Positions 41,728 to 51,216 of a stretch of DNA of 64,000 nt are shown one piece after another. A model generated the notes under the pieces. That model ran no database searches and was not told where the DNA came from. It saw only the letters and a list, made by a program, of their open reading frames with translations. This DNA comes from Galbibacter sp. BG1 (GTDB taxonomy: Bacteria; Bacteroidota; Bacteroidia; Flavobacteriales; Flavobacteriaceae). The stretch is from assembly GCF_013391805.1 (NCBI RefSeq), contig NZ_CP058364.1:1736501-1800500 (forward strand), given 5' to 3'. Positions within the stretch are counted from its first letter, which is position 1. The number at the start of each line of letters is the position of its first letter. The translations under genes and the position numbers were made by a program.

Positions 41728-41762
41728 AAAAAAACCTCTGCAAAACTTATATTTTGCAGAGG
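41728..41762 (-). terminator. terminator, original tRNA-Leu terminator (inferred)
   Basis: An 11-bp stem (41735-41745 with 41752-41762) is followed by a T run only when read on the minus strand. It lies immediately after the displaced tRNA 3' end at 41764-41781, in the orientation of the tRNA gene. I infer that it ended the tRNA-Leu transcript before island insertion. Confidence 0.65.
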
Positions 41763-41763
41763 C

Positions 41764-41781
41764 TAAAAGTACTCGAGGTGG
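41764..41781. other. left attachment site (displaced tRNA-Leu 3' end)
   Basis: The 18-bp string is identical to 61196-61213. It contains the 12-nt acceptor end of tRNA-Leu without the rest of the tRNA, followed inside the island by unrelated sequence. Confidence 0.75.
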
Positions 41782-41840: not shown

Positions 41841-41907
41841 GTGCGCCCGAATTAACTATTTTAACTATTTTTTAACTTTGCACTCCCTAGAATTTGGGTG
41901 GGAGTGC
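41841..41907. repeat. possible integrase arm site and hairpin near the left island end
   Basis: The 12-mer GTGCGCCCGAAT at 41841-41852 occurs as its reverse complement at 61051-61062 near the right end. Next to it is a hairpin with 8-bp arms (41880-41887 and 41900-41907). The remainder of 41782-41982 shows only a lone TAACTTTG at 41873-41880. Confidence 0.4.
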
Positions 41908-41982
41908 TGTCATTTACTTGTTTTTAAAGGTTTACTTTTAGTTAGGATTTGCAGCTATATTTATTATTTGCAAATTTGGAGA

Positions 41983-44912
41983 GTTGCGAATTGCTTTCAG
42001 TTCTGTAATTTTATAGAGGATTCACAGGAGTAAGCATAACGAAAGATTTAAGATATGTGTTGTGAATTGCTTTCAGTTCTGTAATTTTATAGAGGATTCA
42101 CAGGTTAACTACAAAAACAGATAACGTTACTTTAGTTGTGAATTGCTTTCAGTTCTGTAATTTTATAGAGGATTCACAGGTTACGCCTAATTGCGCAGGC
42201 TGTGTTTTTAGTTGTGAATTGCTTTCAGTTCTGTAATTTTATAGAGGATTCACAGGATAAAAGAAAGATTCCCTTAGCTCATGCTCGTTGTGAATTGCTT
42301 TCAGTTCTGTAATTTTATAGAGGATTCACAGGTTACGCCTAATTGCGCAGGCTGTGTTTTTAGTTGTGAATTGCTTTCAGTTCTGTAATTTTATAGAGGA
42401 TTCACAGGCCGTTCTACTTCACAATGTATAGTTGAACTGTTGTGAATTGCTTTCAGTTCTGTAATTTTATAGAGGATTCACAGGCTGAAATGAATGATGA
42501 TGGAACAGGAACCAGTTGTGAATTGCTTTCAGTTCTGTAATTTTATAGAGGATTCACAGGTGAACTTAGTAAACAAAACAATACTAAGTCGTTGTGAATT
42601 GCTTTCAGTTCTGTAATTTTATAGAGGATTCACAGGTATTTCCTTTGGAACTGAACGCCCTTCATTGTTGTGAATTGCTTTCAGTTCTGTAATTTTATAG
42701 AGGATTCACAGGTTTCTGCTTATTCACGTTTTTATCTCGTTCGTTGTGAATTGCTTTCAGTTCTGTAATTTTATAGAGGATTCACAGGATCTCGAAGGTA
42801 AATCTGGTTTTCTGTTTAGTTGTGAATTGCTTTCAGTTCTGTAATTTTATAGAGGATTCACAGGAAGAAATTAATACTAAAGCAAGAACTTGACGTTGTG
42901 AATTGCTTTCAGTTCTGTAATTTTATAGAGGATTCACAGGTACAACATCACCGTTACCTGCAATTATTATGTTGTGAATTGCTTTCAGTTCTGTAATTTT
43001 ATAGAGGATTCACAGGTTTGGTTGGTAAGGGAGCGTAACCGTTTGGGTTGTGAATTGCTTTCAGTTCTGTAATTTTATAGAGGATTCACAGGAACGACGA
43101 CAAAGTACGTGTTACCTTTATCGTTGTGAATTGCTTTCAGTTCTGTAATTTTATAGAGGATTCACAGGATCGAGTTGTTAAGTAATGCTTAATAACTGGT
43201 TGTGAATTGCTTTCAGTTCTGTAATTTTATAGAGGATTCACAGGTCCGGTCTGGATTTCTATCCCCCACATTCTGTTGTGAATTGCTTTCAGTTCTGTAA
43301 TTTTATAGAGGATTCACAGGATACCATCAACAAAGTATTTCGAGGATTATGTTGTGAATTGCTTTCAGTTCTGTAATTTTATAGAGGATTCACAGGAGAA
43401 ACGATAGTCTTAATATGCTATGTACTGTTGTGAATTGCTTTCAGTTCTGTAATTTTATAGAGGATTCACAGGGTCATGGCGGAAATGTAGCTTCCGAACT
43501 TGGTTGTGAATTGCTTTCAGTTCTGTAATTTTATAGAGGATTCACAGGGGAATTACATTCTTTACAAGAGTCTACCAGTTGTGAATTGCTTTCAGTTCTG
43601 TAATTTTATAGAGGATTCACAGGGGCATAAAGATTTTCAAGCTGGACACTATTGTTGTGAATTGCTTTCAGTTCTGTAATTTTATAGAGGATTCACAGGA
43701 TCAGCTATCAAAAGGAGTTGATAGTAAAAGTTGTGAATTGCTTTCAGTTCTGTAATTTTATAGAGGATTCACAGGCATAATTAAAACATACACAAGACAT
43801 TATGAGTTGTGAATTGCTTTCAGTTCTGTAATTTTATAGAGGATTCACAGGGAGCCAACCTATACAAATTTGGAACATTCCGTTGTGAATTGCTTTCAGT
43901 TCTGTAATTTTATAGAGGATTCACAGGGGCATAAAGATTTTCAAGCTGGACACTATTGTTGTGAATTGCTTTCAGTTCTGTAATTTTATAGAGGATTCAC
44001 AGGATCAGCTATCAAAAGGAGTTGATAGTAAAAGTTGTGAATTGCTTTCAGTTCTGTAATTTTATAGAGGATTCACAGGCATAATTAAAACATACACAAG
44101 ACATTATGAGTTGTGAATTGCTTTCAGTTCTGTAATTTTATAGAGGATTCACAGGGAGCCAACCTATACAAATTTGGAACATTCCGTTGTGAATTGCTTT
44201 CAGTTCTGTAATTTTATAGAGGATTCACAGGAGATGAAGACTATTATAAAATATTATACCAGTTGTGAATTGCTTTCAGTTCTGTAATTTTATAGAGGAT
44301 TCACAGGTAGGCAGTATAAAAGTTGAAAATCTACCAGGTTGTGAATTGCTTTCAGTTCTGTAATTTTATAGAGGATTCACAGGCCAGTACTGCTCCTCCT
44401 TAGGCAAATCACTGTTGTGAATTGCTTTCAGTTCTGTAATTTTATAGAGGATTCACAGGTAAATTACCCTGTATGCTTGTTTGTGTGCTGTTGTGAATTG
44501 CTTTCAGTTCTGTAATTTTATAGAGGATTCACAGGAAAATACTGAATTAGTTACAAGAAAAGAGTGTTGTGAATTGCTTTCAGTTCTGTAATTTTATAGA
44601 GGATTCACAGGCGAAGAAAGGTTATTTTGTTGATTTTGTTGTTGTGAATTGCTTTCAGTTCTGTAATTTTATAGAGGATTCACAGGATACGATGGCCTTA
44701 CTGTTGGAGCATATTAGTTGTGAATTGCTTTCAGTTCTGTAATTTTATAGAGGATTCACAGGTTTTCTTTCCGAAGTATCCATCGCATACAGTTGTGAAT
44801 TGCTTTCAGTTCTGTAATTTTATAGAGGATTCACAGGAAAAGTGTTATCTACTTGTGTCCTGGAGTGTTGTGAATTGCTTTCAGTTCTGTAATTTTATAG
44901 AGGATTCACAGG
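41983..44912 (+). CRISPR. type II-C CRISPR array, 39 repeats and 38 spacers
   Basis: The 46-bp repeat begins GTTGTGAATTGCTTTCAG and ends GAGGATTCACAGG; it recurs every 76 bp with 30-nt spacers. Four spacers have 29 nt (after repeats 21, 35, 37 and 38). Repeats are identical except that repeat 1 has C at position 5, marking this as the likely older end. Five spacers are duplicates, leaving 33 different ones. The 5' 18 nt of the repeat pair with the anti-repeat at 50984-51001, which fixes transcription on the plus strand. The repeat contains a promoter-like TTG-N19-TAATTTTA. No spacer matches other sequence in this window as far as I can see. Confidence 0.99.
43578..44185 (+). repeat. tandem duplication of a four-unit (304-bp) block within the CRISPR array
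   Basis: Units 22-25 (43578-43881) recur as units 26-29 (43882-44185) with the same four spacers in the same order, beginning GGCATAAAGATTTTCAAGC, ATCAGCTATCAAAAGGAG, CATAATTAAAACATACAC and GAGCCAACCTATACAAAT. Confidence 0.97.
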
Positions 44913-45490: not shown

Positions 45491-46390
45491 TTATCCAAAT
45501 TCAGGATACAGAATTTTTCTACTGCCCCCGTAAAAACATTCGTATAAACTATTGGTAGTTCGGCTCATGGCCACCATTAGCGGGCTCTGTTTTCCGTCGA
45601 TAACCACATCCATAGCAGGAATTACCAACAATTCTGTTTTGATATTGGTTGTAAGCACTTCTAAATTACAACCGGTTTCCACAATTTCATATACCAGGCT
45701 GTCCACAAAAGGTCGGTAAGGTTCCATAACATCGTCTGCCAAGCAAAAGGCATTGTATTTGTTGGAGTGGAAAATCCCTACCGAAGGCAATAGCCCACTG
45801 CTTACCAATGCGCGGGCAGCTACAGCCCTTAAAATAGCATAGCCATAATTCAGTAAATTGTTGGGAGGGATGCCTTTTTGGTTTCGGCTAAATCCATCTA
45901 TATCAGCAAACAAGCTTTGAAAATAATGTGCTGCTGCTACGGCTTCTAAGTTTCCTATGTCCCCGCTCTTAACTTCTTTTGCCCATCGCTTCAATTTAAG
46001 GGCATTTTTCGAGACCAGTAATAAATGGTTGGCTTGGTTTTCTATTTTAGCGGTTACCGTTTGTTGCCATAATTGTTTTTTAAGGGGAACACTGGCATTA
46101 ATTTGATGGCGGAAACGTTCGGTTTGTTCGCTATGTCCTACAAGCGGTTGTAAAAAAGAGCAGGGGAGGTGCTGTTGGTCGCAGGTAATCACTGCTGTTT
46201 TGTTTTGTGCTAGTTTCATCAACAAGCCATTGGTAACGGTTATTTGCGGATTTTCGAGCACTACATACCCCAAATCCTCAATAGGAATGGTCGCTTCCTT
46301 TTTATCGGCATCAGGAAAATTGACTACCAATTGCTCGTTACGGGTACTTAAATAAGCAGGATTGCCGAAAAATAGGGTGCGTTTAATCAT
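45491..46390 (-). CDS. cas1: CRISPR-associated endonuclease Cas1 (type II)
   Basis: The 299-residue integrase for new spacers has the metal-binding residues Glu149 (GNLEAVAAAHYF), His208 (GIFHSNKYNAF) and Asp220 (CLADDVMEPYRP). Its start overlaps the cas9 stop in an ATGA, so it is translationally coupled to cas9. No csn2 or cas4 is present, which defines subtype II-C. Confidence 0.97.
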   Translation of the reverse strand: MIKRTLFFGNPAYLSTRNEQLVVNFPDADKKEATIPIEDLGYVVLENPQITVTNGLLMKLAQNKTAVITCDQQHLPCSFLQPLVGHSEQTERFRHQINASVPLKKQLWQQTVTAKIENQANHLLLVSKNALKLKRWAKEVKSGDIGNLEAVAAAHYFQSLFADIDGFSRNQKGIPPNNLLNYGYAILRAVAARALVSSGLLPSVGIFHSNKYNAFCLADDVMEPYRPFVDSLVYEIVETGCNLEVLTTNIKTELLVIPAMDVVIDGKQSPLMVAMSRTTNSLYECFYGGSRKILYPEFG

Positions 46391-49300
46391 TTTTGTACCT
46401 TTGAAATATTTCCTAATCGATCAATTTTGAGTTTATAACAAACCTCTTTTATTCTAATTGGATTCGTAATTTCTGTAGTAATTTCTAATTTGTTTAAACT
46501 ACCAAGTTCACCTATTTTGCTTTTTGAATCATAGTTTTTTATTAACGAAGCAATATTCATTTTAGTAAAATGACACTCAGTCCCCGTGCTGCTTACCATT
46601 TTATAAATTCGATTGGCTTGATCCAAGGTTAAATTTTTAAAATCGATTAAAGTTGGATTATTTAGCTCTTCTTCTGTTGGGATATATACCAAATCATTTG
46701 GAGATAGAGTAAATAAAAATTCACCTTTTTCTGGATTAGGTTGTATGGCAGTCCGTTGGTTTTTTGGTAAATGTGCTACTTGTTTTTGATGTGCAATGAC
46801 TTCATTCAAGGGAATGGTCTCATAGTTTCGTTTTTGCTTTTTCTCATCCCAATAAATGGCAAAAAAGAGATTAGTCCCTTTTGCAGCTTCAACATATTTA
46901 GTGTTTTTATTTCCTATTTCACCAACTTGAAATTTACTTCCTATTTCAAAAAATTTTACCTTACGAATAGGTTGATGTTTTTTACAATTGTTTAAGTAGA
47001 TTATGGCCTTATTTAAATCCTCTATTCCTTCTTCATTAAAAGCGGCTTCAAAGTTTATTTTTCCCTTTTCGTCTTTATAATTCTTTAAATGATTTGAAAG
47101 GATGACATCTCTTATTTGTTTATCGGTTATTTTAGCCAAATGCTTCTCGTTTTTTATTCCAGATAGCGAACTTCTAACCGCAGTTGCGATTTTACCTTTT
47201 GGAGTTTTGAGATTATACAACCCCGAGATTGTTTCCTTGTGTAAAGACTTTCTTATCGCCCAATTATCGCCAGCGGTTTGTTTGCGCAGCTTCTTCTTTG
47301 GTTTACCGTCTTTACCGATATTTAGGTTACCCTTTTCATCTTTATATGACCAAAACTTGTTATTGGCTTTATTAATTACGCGTAAATTTTGCTTAAAACT
47401 TACCACAATAGTTTCAAGCTGTACTTTGGCTTCAGTTGGGAGGTTTTCCCATGGCATTTGAAAGATTTTGGTGTAATGATTTTGATCATTTTTAATCAAT
47501 AATTTATCACGTAAGGCGTAGTTTTTATTTTCAGCATTTAAGGCACTCAAATACTGAATGTGACTGCGTGTGCAACAAGCAACCACTAGGGCATCTAAGG
47601 CATGATGACGATGATCTATTCGTTTTTTATTAAACCCTTTTATTAATTCATTGGGAACGGTTGGAATTATTTTTCCATTCGTGTTAGTTGTGGTGAAATC
47701 ATTTGTTTGAGTTAACTGGTTTAACCTTTCGAAGCGAGGTAAAATGAGTTCGTTCCATTTATCATTAAGTCCCCAATCATTTTTAAGTTTTGTCGTTATT
47801 GAACCTGTAACAGGAATCAAATTTTTAGACGTTGCTTCTTGCTCGCCTTCTTTTCGTACAATATTACTCAATAATCCTTTAATTAACTTGCTGATATACC
47901 GACTATCATTTAATTGCCTATTTATAAATCCTTCTGGGATATCTTCACTTAAAAGATTGATTAGTTTTGCTTTATTAGTTTTGAAATATTGATTTACATG
48001 GGCTTCATATTCTTCTAATGAAAGTAGTTTGTGCCCATGAATTACTGATCCTCTTTTCTCTTTAAGGTATTCGTAAGCAGTTTTGTTGTCCTTGTCTTCA
48101 TTAATTGCACTTTCACAGATAATTTTATTACTTAGTGAATTGTCAAAATACCGAGATTGTGGAATAATATGCTCTATTTGATATTCATGAGTAAATAATT
48201 TTGACAACGGAATAGGTTTTCCTGTATATGGTGAAATATAGCCTTGTTCTAGCCACAAACGATAACGCTGTACTTCTTTTTGAGTTGGACTGTTACTACG
48301 TCTAATTTTTGCTACTTCATCTTCACTTACTTTTGTATAATCTGCTTTTGGGTTTTGATAGATACCATCTTCGTATATTTTTAATAAATCTTGGTGACTG
48401 GGAGAATAATCACGAATCTCACCTTTAATTGAAGAATCATTCATTAAATCTTTTAGAACTTCTCTTATACGATGATTGGTGTTTTCGTTTTCGATATTTC
48501 TATCTGCTATTTTTTTTCGTTTATCAGCTGGGTTTTTCATTTCTCGACCTAACTCTACATGAATTTCGTTAAAGAAGTCAGGTTCGCCATCTCCATAATG
48601 TTTCCAAATATCTATTACAACACGAAGGGTTTCAGTAACTACTTGTTCAACAATAGGGTTTCGTAATGAATGCTGTTTAAATTTTTTTATATAGGTGTCG
48701 ATGTCTTTTGGAGTTCTCCAATGTTGAATATCACTTACTTCAGAATGCTTGCCATAAACCAAATAAGTCGCTTGATAAGTGTTTAAACCACTTAGAGGAT
48801 TTTTGTTTTTTAACGGAACAAAACTTTTTATAAGCTGTTTGTTAACATCATCATCACTAACATTTGCTAGGGTTAATGCTAGTTCTCTATCCTTATAATC
48901 TTCTTTTAAATTCAGTGCATTAACACGTGCCATTATATCAGTAACACGCTGTTTGATATTCTCTGAAATGTCATTTTCATTCCAATATTTCCCTCTACGC
49001 ATTAAAGGCAATAATTTACTTAATGCTTTTTTAGAATAGCTGCCATAATCGCTTTTAAAAGGTGGGAACTTGATAAAATTGGCTAGAAATGATTCTTCGT
49101 CTACATCATGTTTGTTTGCAAACTTCTTTAAGGCAGATTTATACTCATTAAGATCTGAGACCGAATAGATAATATGCCATAATTGTTCTTCCCTACTTAT
49201 TAATTTTCCTGTTTGATTTTTACCAACTAAGGTTTTTTCGGTTAAAAATAGTTCTGGAGAATTTATATCTTCAACTCGTTTCAATCGGTTAATAAATTGA

Positions 49301-50883
49301 ACTTTGGTTTCAGCAAGTGGATATGGTTTATCTGTCTCATAATTCCATCTATACTTAGTTTTGTCCTTTTTATCTATTGATTTTTGTTTGATGAAGTAAT
49401 CTATAATGTGTTTTTGCTCAATTGTTTGCTTAGTATTTAAAAAGTTAAACAGAGCTTCCCAGTCTTTTTCTGTTTTTAAAAAATGAGAAGTAACATCTTG
49501 CATTTTTCCGTTTTCAATCTGTTCTTCATTGTAAATACGTAAGTTTTGTAACCATTGCCATATTCTAAATTCTTGAAATAAAGGATGACTTTTTGGAATT
49601 GCTTTTACAGGCTTCTTAATAACCTGTATTATACCTTTTTCATTCTCCTTTTTATAACTCCGATATTCAAACTGGCAATCAGAAATATTCGACTTTTGAC
49701 TTCTCAACGGGCGCTGATAAAAGATAATATCTTCTGTGAATAAATATTCAAACCCTTTGTTTTTTATAATGTTTTGATGCGCTTCATTTCTAGGGTATAA
49801 CTCTTCAATACAACTTTTATAAAGTTCACTGGTAAAAAAATCAGGTTGTAGTTCTATCTGTTTAGATAATATCTTTCTAAATTCTTCTTTATAAAATTTT
49901 CTTTCAATTGTTTTTACGAGTTTGCCTCTAATTTTTTGAGTTGGATTTTTCAATAAGGTCTCATAAATATAAGTTCCAACTGTTTTATTTGATTCCTCAA
50001 TATCTTGCTCGGTTTTTGCTTTAATAGCAATCCAATCTTTCTCAGAATCAATAGCTTTATAAGTTCTTTTTATTTCCCCGCTTTTTAACGCTTTTGTAGT
50101 TACGATAAACTCTTTGGTTCTATTAATCCATTCTTCCGTTTTTATAATTTGTTTGTCATATTTCCAACCGTTTTCAAAAAATACATCAAATAGTGTTTTT
50201 CCTTTTATATTTTCACCTGAGTCAATAATTTCTTTTACTTTTAGCTGAACAAATTGTTTGTCTTTATCTTCGTCGGTTTCTTCACCTCGCAATTGATAAT
50301 AACCTCGCTTTTGGTTAAAGTTTAAAATTACCCATGCTAATTCTTGTTTTGAGATAGGTTGTGAAAGTGCTTTTTTGCGTAAGTAATATAGTGCCCAATC
50401 ATATGGGATTTTTGTTTCTATACCATTTTTCTTTTCATAAAATAAATTAGGATGCTCTTTTTTAAACTCTTCAAGCATTTCTTTATAAGACTCTTTAAAA
50501 ATAAATTCATATTTGTTAGCGCTATTGAGTTTATAGTTTAGCTTTATTTCTTTTCCCGATTTAAATTGCCCTAGACGCTTTTCAAAATCAATGCCTCTAG
50601 CATAGTGGGGTGGTAAAAAATCTAGTATATTTAATACTCTATGTAGGCGTTCCCTTCTTAAATTTTTTCTTTGATACAAACGTCTTACTCCTCTGTAGCC
50701 CGTTCTTTCAGCAGTTTGAGAATGGGATAGCCCTGCATCAAATTTTCCCAGAATATCTGCGCTCATAGGGATTATACGAACTCCTAAACCATCTATTGAG
50801 CCTTCTTTTTTATTAAAATCTTGTTTAACCAAAGCCCAGCCAATACTGTTGGTGCCTAAATCCAATCCAAGAACTTTTTTCAT
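46387..50883 (-). CDS. cas9: Cas9 RNA-guided endonuclease, type II-C, large Bacteroidota form
   Basis: At 1498 residues this is among the longer II-C Cas9 proteins, as is common in flavobacteria. RuvC-I has Asp8 (KKVLGLDLGTNSIGW), the arginine-rich bridge helix is about residues 60-80, RuvC-II has Glu777 (HVELGREMKN), the HNH site has His905 (YQIEHIIPQS), and RuvC-III has His1094 and Asp1097 (HRHHALDALVV). All nuclease residues appear intact. It cuts DNA matching crRNA spacers next to a PAM that I cannot predict. Gene order cas9-cas1-cas2 runs on the minus strand, opposite to the array and tracrRNA. No frameshift is present. Confidence 0.98.
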   Translation of the reverse strand: MKKVLGLDLGTNSIGWALVKQDFNKKEGSIDGLGVRIIPMSADILGKFDAGLSHSQTAERTGYRGVRRLYQRKNLRRERLHRVLNILDFLPPHYARGIDFEKRLGQFKSGKEIKLNYKLNSANKYEFIFKESYKEMLEEFKKEHPNLFYEKKNGIETKIPYDWALYYLRKKALSQPISKQELAWVILNFNQKRGYYQLRGEETDEDKDKQFVQLKVKEIIDSGENIKGKTLFDVFFENGWKYDKQIIKTEEWINRTKEFIVTTKALKSGEIKRTYKAIDSEKDWIAIKAKTEQDIEESNKTVGTYIYETLLKNPTQKIRGKLVKTIERKFYKEEFRKILSKQIELQPDFFTSELYKSCIEELYPRNEAHQNIIKNKGFEYLFTEDIIFYQRPLRSQKSNISDCQFEYRSYKKENEKGIIQVIKKPVKAIPKSHPLFQEFRIWQWLQNLRIYNEEQIENGKMQDVTSHFLKTEKDWEALFNFLNTKQTIEQKHIIDYFIKQKSIDKKDKTKYRWNYETDKPYPLAETKVQFINRLKRVEDINSPELFLTEKTLVGKNQTGKLISREEQLWHIIYSVSDLNEYKSALKKFANKHDVDEESFLANFIKFPPFKSDYGSYSKKALSKLLPLMRRGKYWNENDISENIKQRVTDIMARVNALNLKEDYKDRELALTLANVSDDDVNKQLIKSFVPLKNKNPLSGLNTYQATYLVYGKHSEVSDIQHWRTPKDIDTYIKKFKQHSLRNPIVEQVVTETLRVVIDIWKHYGDGEPDFFNEIHVELGREMKNPADKRKKIADRNIENENTNHRIREVLKDLMNDSSIKGEIRDYSPSHQDLLKIYEDGIYQNPKADYTKVSEDEVAKIRRSNSPTQKEVQRYRLWLEQGYISPYTGKPIPLSKLFTHEYQIEHIIPQSRYFDNSLSNKIICESAINEDKDNKTAYEYLKEKRGSVIHGHKLLSLEEYEAHVNQYFKTNKAKLINLLSEDIPEGFINRQLNDSRYISKLIKGLLSNIVRKEGEQEATSKNLIPVTGSITTKLKNDWGLNDKWNELILPRFERLNQLTQTNDFTTTNTNGKIIPTVPNELIKGFNKKRIDHRHHALDALVVACCTRSHIQYLSALNAENKNYALRDKLLIKNDQNHYTKIFQMPWENLPTEAKVQLETIVVSFKQNLRVINKANNKFWSYKDEKGNLNIGKDGKPKKKLRKQTAGDNWAIRKSLHKETISGLYNLKTPKGKIATAVRSSLSGIKNEKHLAKITDKQIRDVILSNHLKNYKDEKGKINFEAAFNEEGIEDLNKAIIYLNNCKKHQPIRKVKFFEIGSKFQVGEIGNKNTKYVEAAKGTNLFFAIYWDEKKQKRNYETIPLNEVIAHQKQVAHLPKNQRTAIQPNPEKGEFLFTLSPNDLVYIPTEEELNNPTLIDFKNLTLDQANRIYKMVSSTGTECHFTKMNIASLIKNYDSKSKIGELGSLNKLEITTEITNPIRIKEVCYKLKIDRLGNISKVQK

Positions 50884-50981
50884 AATAGTAGTGTTTAGGA
50901 TACTAAATATACAAGAAAATAGTTTATGTTAATTATGGAAATCCGTAATATGCTTTATAGAAAGTTTTGTATATTCGAAGT

Positions 50982-51057
50982 CTGAAAGCAATTCACAATA
51001 AGGATTATTCCGTTGTGAAAACATTTAGCGCCTCGACTATCTTCGGGGCATTTTTTT
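50982..51057 (+). ncRNA. tracrRNA
   Basis: CTGAAAGCAATTCACAAT at 50984-51001 complements the first 18 nt of the CRISPR repeat, with one G-U pair at the end. It is followed by the conserved II-C core AAGGATTATTCCGTTGTGAA and a terminator: 7-bp stem 51030-51036/51043-51049 with a T run at 51051-51057. A -7-like TATATTCG at 50970-50977 would start the RNA at the anti-repeat. It is divergent from cas9, about 100 bp from its start. A -33 box is not clear. The region 50884-51216 holds no other gene. Confidence 0.92.
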
Positions 51058-51216
51058 GTTAAAGCCTTAAGTATGCTAGATTTTTATAAAAGAAATCGAG
51101 CTTATCATGTTGTTCTTATTTTAGAATTCTCAGGTCTGGGATGAAAAAAGTAATTCTTTATAATTTCAATTTATAAAAAGAGGAAAAATCATCTTTTTAT
51201 CTAAAACAAATAGTAA

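Follow-up and report, generated by a model that had tools for sequence, protein, structure and literature searches.

Promoters located within CRISPR repeats have been described for the type II-C systems of Campylobacter jejuni, in which each repeat contains one and RNase III is reported to be still required (PMC3656092), and of Neisseria meningitidis, for which other papers cite Zhang et al. 2013. These loci resemble that of Galbibacter sp. BG1 analysed here in that all are II-C, contain only cas9, cas1 and cas2, bear in every repeat a promoter element (putative in Galbibacter) that points into the next spacer, and are transcribed opposite to the cas genes, toward the end at which spacers are acquired. 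In C. jejuni and N. meningitidis, however, the repeat is 36 nt long and has in its final bases a -10 or extended -10 element recognised by a factor of the sigma-70 type, whereas Galbibacter has TTG...TAnnTTT[G/A] at nt 2–31 of a 46-nt repeat, with a predicted start inside the repeat. The Galbibacter repeat differs from this 36-nt form with its 3'-terminal -10 box, while transcription toward the acquisition end (the direction being deduced from the tracrRNA) and a leader without a promoter are shared. Judged by sequence, the Galbibacter array does not belong to the Neisseria/Campylobacter kind but is a variant of it.

Within Bacteroidota, a repeat-encoded promoter consisting of TTG only has been proposed for Flavobacterium columnare (PMC8092290) and F. 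psychrophilum (PMC10309648), so the idea of a promoter in the repeat is not wholly new for this phylum. As in Galbibacter, these proposals place a TTG ~33 bp before the spacer as the -33 element and have transcription running toward the leader; they differ in that they concern 36-nt repeats and TTG alone, whereas the long repeats studied here have both elements. Most Flavobacterium 36-nt II-C repeats have no -7 box (2/6 matches), and their arrays are reported to be transcribed (PMC10309648). One such repeat, GTTGTGGTTTGATTAAAGATTAGAAAACACGATATT (loci L120 and L126–L132, Flavobacterium), lacks TAnnTTTG, yet several of its loci have tracrRNA boxes upstream, and one genome (G285) has both a 46-nt array with the box (L144) and a 36-nt array without it (L127). 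A study of the related Riemerella system reported no promoters in repeats (PMC5006608), using a general prediction tool not designed for Bacteroidota signals. In the open-access literature searched, no description of a -7 box in Bacteroidota II-C repeats was found.

The Galbibacter locus and the elements in its repeat

The window, a 64,000-nt stretch of the Galbibacter sp. BG1 chromosome, contains the following features of the locus.

41983–44912, crRNA strand +: CRISPR array of 39 repeats of 46 nt with spacers of 29–30 nt, oriented by the anti-repeat on the + strand
41983–42028, +: oldest, cas-distal repeat (T5C), both promoter-like elements retained (genome-model score 6.57)
41984–41986, +: TTG, -33-like, of the first repeat; nt 2–4 in every repeat; confounded by tracrRNA pairing of nt 2–18
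42006–42013, +: TAATTTTA, -7-like box of the first repeat; nt 24–31 in every repeat
42018, +: predicted transcription start of the first repeat (nt 36), recurring in every unit, placed by the F. psychrophilum dRNA-seq geometry (PMC9723704)
44913–45019, no strand assigned: presumed leader, the gap between array and cas2 and the spacer-acquisition end, judged by last-repeat integrity in relatives and the Riemerella experiment (PMC6008519)
45020–45367, -: cas2 (TIGR01573 above cut-off)
45491–46390, -: cas1, type II (TIGR03639 above cut-off)
46387–50883, -: cas9, 1498 aa (TIGR01865 above cut-off)
50970–50977, +: TATATTCG, candidate tracrRNA -7 box with the start placed at the anti-repeat, without TTG at the usual distance
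50982–50998, +: tracrRNA anti-repeat, 17 nt, a perfect complement of repeat nt 2–18 only
50982–51058, +: predicted tracrRNA, its putative 3' end a terminator-like hairpin and T-run

The cas genes are cas9, cas1 and cas2 only, and because csn2 and cas4 are absent from the ORF list around the locus, the system is type II-C. The anti-repeat lies on the + strand and crRNAs are therefore read from that strand, opposite to the cas genes. The repeat (GTTGTGAATTGCTTTCAGTTCTGTAATTTTATAGAGGATTCACAGG, 46 nt) is identical in 38 of 39 copies, the first deviating by a C at nt 5. A block of four spacers is tandemly duplicated (units 22–25 and 26–29; 43578–44185) and the unit 3 spacer recurs in unit 5, which suggests recombination between repeats.

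The initial annotation had read a Bacteroidota promoter into each repeat. All 39 repeats indeed have TTG at nt 2–4 and TAATTTTA at nt 24–31, separated by N19 and oriented as the tracrRNA predicts for the crRNA, and the sole mismatch of TAATTTTA to the consensus TAnnTTTG is its last base, A for G. The box thus agrees at 5/6 positions. The annotation had put the start 7–9 nt after the box; as the -7 box of F. psychrophilum promoters spans -12 to -5 (PMC9723704), the predicted position was corrected to about nt 36, roughly 5 nt past the box and 11 nt before the spacer. When nt 1–18 were held, nt 19–46 shuffled and the box sought at N19–21, a box of at least 5/6 arose in 5.5% of the shuffles (P 0.055) and TAnnTTT[G/A] in 1.0%. 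The match in this array alone is weak and only suggestive, because its 39 repeat copies are not independent. The TTG stands at the commonest spacing of the genome, N19, and is not separate evidence, because the tracrRNA pairs with nt 2–4 as well and many terminal repeats have lost the TTG. A scan for sigma-70 promoters returned nothing relevant.

A two-block -33/-7 model was trained on 649 upstream regions from the Galbibacter genome, sampled as 1.26 Mb of stretches. It converged on TAnnTTT followed by G or A, with N19 as the most frequent spacing, and selects exactly the TTG/TAATTTTA site in the repeat, an equal score being reached in 1.3% of random 60-nt genome windows. Refitting with no assumed last base gave TAnnTTT with G at 0.49 and A at 0.37 (background A ~0.36). 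Near start codons TAnnTTTG occurs 153 times sense versus 56 antisense and TAnnTTTA 169 versus 113; TAnnTTTT and TAnnTTTC have no comparable sense excess there, and a control fit to the antisense strand did not converge on the TAnnTTT motif. A final A is thus a tolerated -7 variant in this genome, though less favoured than G. A pooled Flavobacteriaceae promoter model was discarded after being captured by homologous sequence common to cas loci.

Long II-C repeats across Bacteroidota

Searches based on Cas1, together with stretches retrieved around the loci, yielded 108 distinct Bacteroidota II-C repeats, 87 of them 44–48 nt long. After repeats with identical 3' parts were dropped, 85 long repeats were tested against shuffles in which nt 1–18 were kept, the box being accepted 17–22 nt from TTG. 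A perfect (6/6) TAnnTTTG at the right distance is present in 30/85, where shuffles average 0.57 and never exceed 5; a match of 5/6 or better is present in 73/85, where shuffles average 7.9 and reach 17 at most. Some genomes occur twice among the loci, with related arrays sharing terminal sequence, so that array counts overstate independence; the safer measure is a thinned set of 17 repeats whose 3' parts are more than 9 edits apart. In this set 6/17 have the perfect box (shuffles 0.10, maximum 2) and 13/17 match it at 5/6 or better (1.4, maximum 8). On the antisense strand there is none, and the 36 type I-B/I-C repeats of the same phylum lack a perfect box on either strand.

Indels shift the position of the box, yet its distance from TTG stays at 18–23 nt, a range shared with the promoters fitted in the Galbibacter genome. 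Conditioning the information profile on the box proved circular at TA..TT; in the unconditioned profile used instead, nt 28 is surpassed in conservation by nt 19 only. The letters of the box vary by clade, Bacteroidales having mostly TATCTTTG and Flavobacteriaceae TAnnTTTA or TAnnTTAG. Two published repeats from outside the search set, those of Bacteroides fragilis (PMC9367070) and Prevotella intermedia (PMC5608340), both read TTG-N19-TATCTTTG on the crRNA strand. This comparison supports the annotation's proposal of an in-repeat promoter built from Bacteroidota signals, and it is likely that in much of the phylum long-repeat II-C arrays are expressed from a promoter of the primary sigma factor within the repeat.

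Two further patterns were observed. One group of long repeats (L013, L023–L025, L030, L152, L158, L162–L164 and L169) may have another dialect of the box, in which CTTTG is kept, TT or GT replaces TA and the spacing is 17–18. Three 36-nt repeats (L136, L140 and L153) have GATCTTTG exactly at nt 24–31, from which a start would fall at the repeat's very end.

Array polarity, terminal repeats and competing accounts

The repeat on the cas2 (leader) side is intact in 108/111 arrays, and the opposite end is changed in 50/83. In Riemerella, whose system is of the same kind (47-bp repeats, anti-repeat TGAAAGCAATTCACAA), new spacers have been shown experimentally to be inserted between cas2 and the array (PMC6008519). 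Acquisition at the cas2 end, together with the crRNA direction deduced from the tracrRNA, indicates that the array is transcribed toward its leader; since spacers are added at the cas2 end, the newest are furthest from any upstream promoter, 3 kb away here. Leader-independent expression, a further element of the initial annotation, agrees with the position of the leader at the opposite (cas2) end. The upstream flank has the following features.

41733–41764, -: terminator-like hairpin and T-run
41873–41880, +: TAACTTTG, possible -7 box outside the repeats, 103 bp ahead of the first of them and lacking a TTG
41933–41955, +: possible decayed older repeat with TACTTTTA at 41933–41940 (shuffle p 0.005, 7/23 mismatches; tentative)

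An additional start upstream of the array, from TAACTTTG, is possible. A strong hairpin, GCACTCCC...GGGAGTGC (41881–41908), lies between this box and the array and could be a shield for the array or part of a small RNA.

Such an upstream promoter could also be the only one, its long pre-crRNA being cleaved by RNase III at the tracrRNA-paired repeats, with the box in the repeat incidental or weak. We regard this account as unlikely. It can call on TAACTTTG and on the RNase III gene that the Galbibacter sp. BG1 genome encodes, but the 150 nt upstream of 72 arrays have the box 9 times sense and 9 times antisense (with TTG, 3 versus 4), that is, without enrichment, and the 111 leader flanks are likewise not enriched for promoters directed into the array. 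The box in the repeat, moreover, is conserved where neighbouring bases are not, and spacers enter at the far end from such a promoter.

The oldest repeats also argue against it, as they retain the box although a repeat that gives no crRNA would be dispensable. In many arrays the first 12–23 nt of this repeat are lost and unrelated sequence stands in their place, the remainder being kept. The threshold of the first detection of truncated repeats hides cuts beyond the box, and an unbiased suffix search was therefore added; it confirmed the terminal loss of the 5' part and found three arrays (L041, L047 and L069) in which the cut damages the box, two weak hits starting past the box (L038 and L145) being excluded as doubtful. 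TAnnTT is kept in 42/45 decayed terminal repeats with a box. Rates of change in these repeats fall from 50% in TTG and 36% in the anti-repeat part to 11% in nn, 3.6% after the box and 2.8% in TA..TT; because the rate after the box is low as well, only the contrast within the box is promoter-specific, and there the fixed and last bases are changed at 6/270 positions versus 10/90 for nn (p 0.0013). Among terminal repeats that lost their TTG (about half of the degenerate ones), a TTG at N18–22 is found in 10/32, with 5.1 expected.

According to Feussner et al. 2025 (PMC12080349), the extra repeat of type II-C arrays accumulates its mutations in the first 15 nt, and they proposed that its promoter has to be retained. 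The oldest repeats here behave alike; the Bacteroidota promoter was undefined in that study, whereas here the part that is kept contains the -7 box, whose fixed bases change less than its variable ones. The terminal-repeat pattern thus fits their proposal and would locate the promoter.

Conservation of the box through pairing with the tracrRNA was rejected, since the anti-repeats of relatives pair with repeat nt 2–18, or 2–19 at most, and do not reach the box. Relatives carry, in their tracrRNA genes, separate -7 boxes, TAnnTTT[G/A], directly upstream of the anti-repeat and placed similarly to the Galbibacter candidate. The last base of these boxes is associated with that of the repeat box (tracr/repeat G/G 21, A/G 1, G/A 7, A/A 14; Fisher p 2e-5, kinship being ignored). 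The two look like a pair of promoters written in one local dialect.

Less probable still is an explanation in which TAnnTT is kept as a hairpin or inverted repeat serving crRNA processing or Cas1-Cas2, with no promoter role. The Galbibacter repeat does fold (-11 kcal/mol, z -2.7) into a structure whose hairpin surrounds the box, and in Flavobacteriaceae, where a small inverted repeat spans the box and may be a second reason for its conservation, stems average 5.2 versus 4.6 in box-fixed shuffles (1/300 shuffles). The TTTG group, however, has the best boxes and no such hairpin (3.75 versus 4.12), so no stem can explain the box in general. Nor would this explanation lead one to expect letters equal to the phylum -7 consensus or a final base that covaries with tracrRNA promoters, and the box keeps no fixed distance to either repeat end, which makes it ill-suited to a Cas1-Cas2 ruler. 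That the middle of an AT-rich repeat, its TTG fixed by tracrRNA pairing, resembles the box by accident would accord with the P of 0.055 for the Galbibacter repeat alone, but is highly improbable and largely refuted, as the 85 distinct and the 17 thinned repeats far exceed their shuffles.

Predicted crRNA expression and its significance

We therefore return to a promoter within the repeat. The position, spacing, conservation and strand of the box, the polarity of the array and the pattern in terminal repeats are observed directly; use of the box by polymerase, the start site and the RNA processing are inferred. Probably, every repeat carries a promoter of the Bacteroidota type and each spacer has a start of its own, the points against including the ending of the Galbibacter box in A rather than the preferred G and the reported transcription of 36-nt arrays that lack the box. 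In the proposed mechanism, the main sigma factor of Bacteroidota would read TTG at nt 2–4 (about -33) and TAATTTTA at nt 24–31 (the -7 box), and RNA polymerase would start near nt 36 of each repeat and transcribe the adjoining spacer before entering the repeat beyond it, whose first half (nt 2–18) would then engage the tracrRNA and Cas9. New spacers at the cas2 end, although far downstream, would be expressed at once because each has its own start. In the oldest repeat, which has no useful crRNA of its own, the tracrRNA-binding half would be dispensable and the box would have to stay. Independence from RNase III, which the initial annotation had also predicted, is unsupported: the gene is present, and C. 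jejuni is reported to need the enzyme even with its repeat promoters (PMC3656092).

If this reading is true, the Bacteroidota arrays would represent a solution separate from the -10 element at the repeat end in Neisseria and Campylobacter, with different signals and a start inside the repeat. It would help to account for the length of these repeats and for oldest repeats that lack only their tracrRNA half, and would set the long-repeat systems apart from the 36-nt systems of Flavobacterium. It also predicts start sites with an accuracy of a few bases, as well as the repeat bases whose change would silence guides. Each repeat-spacer unit added may thus bring its own promoter, and a mechanism of crRNA expression would be at hand for a large group of Cas9 systems that includes those of Bacteroides fragilis and Prevotella.
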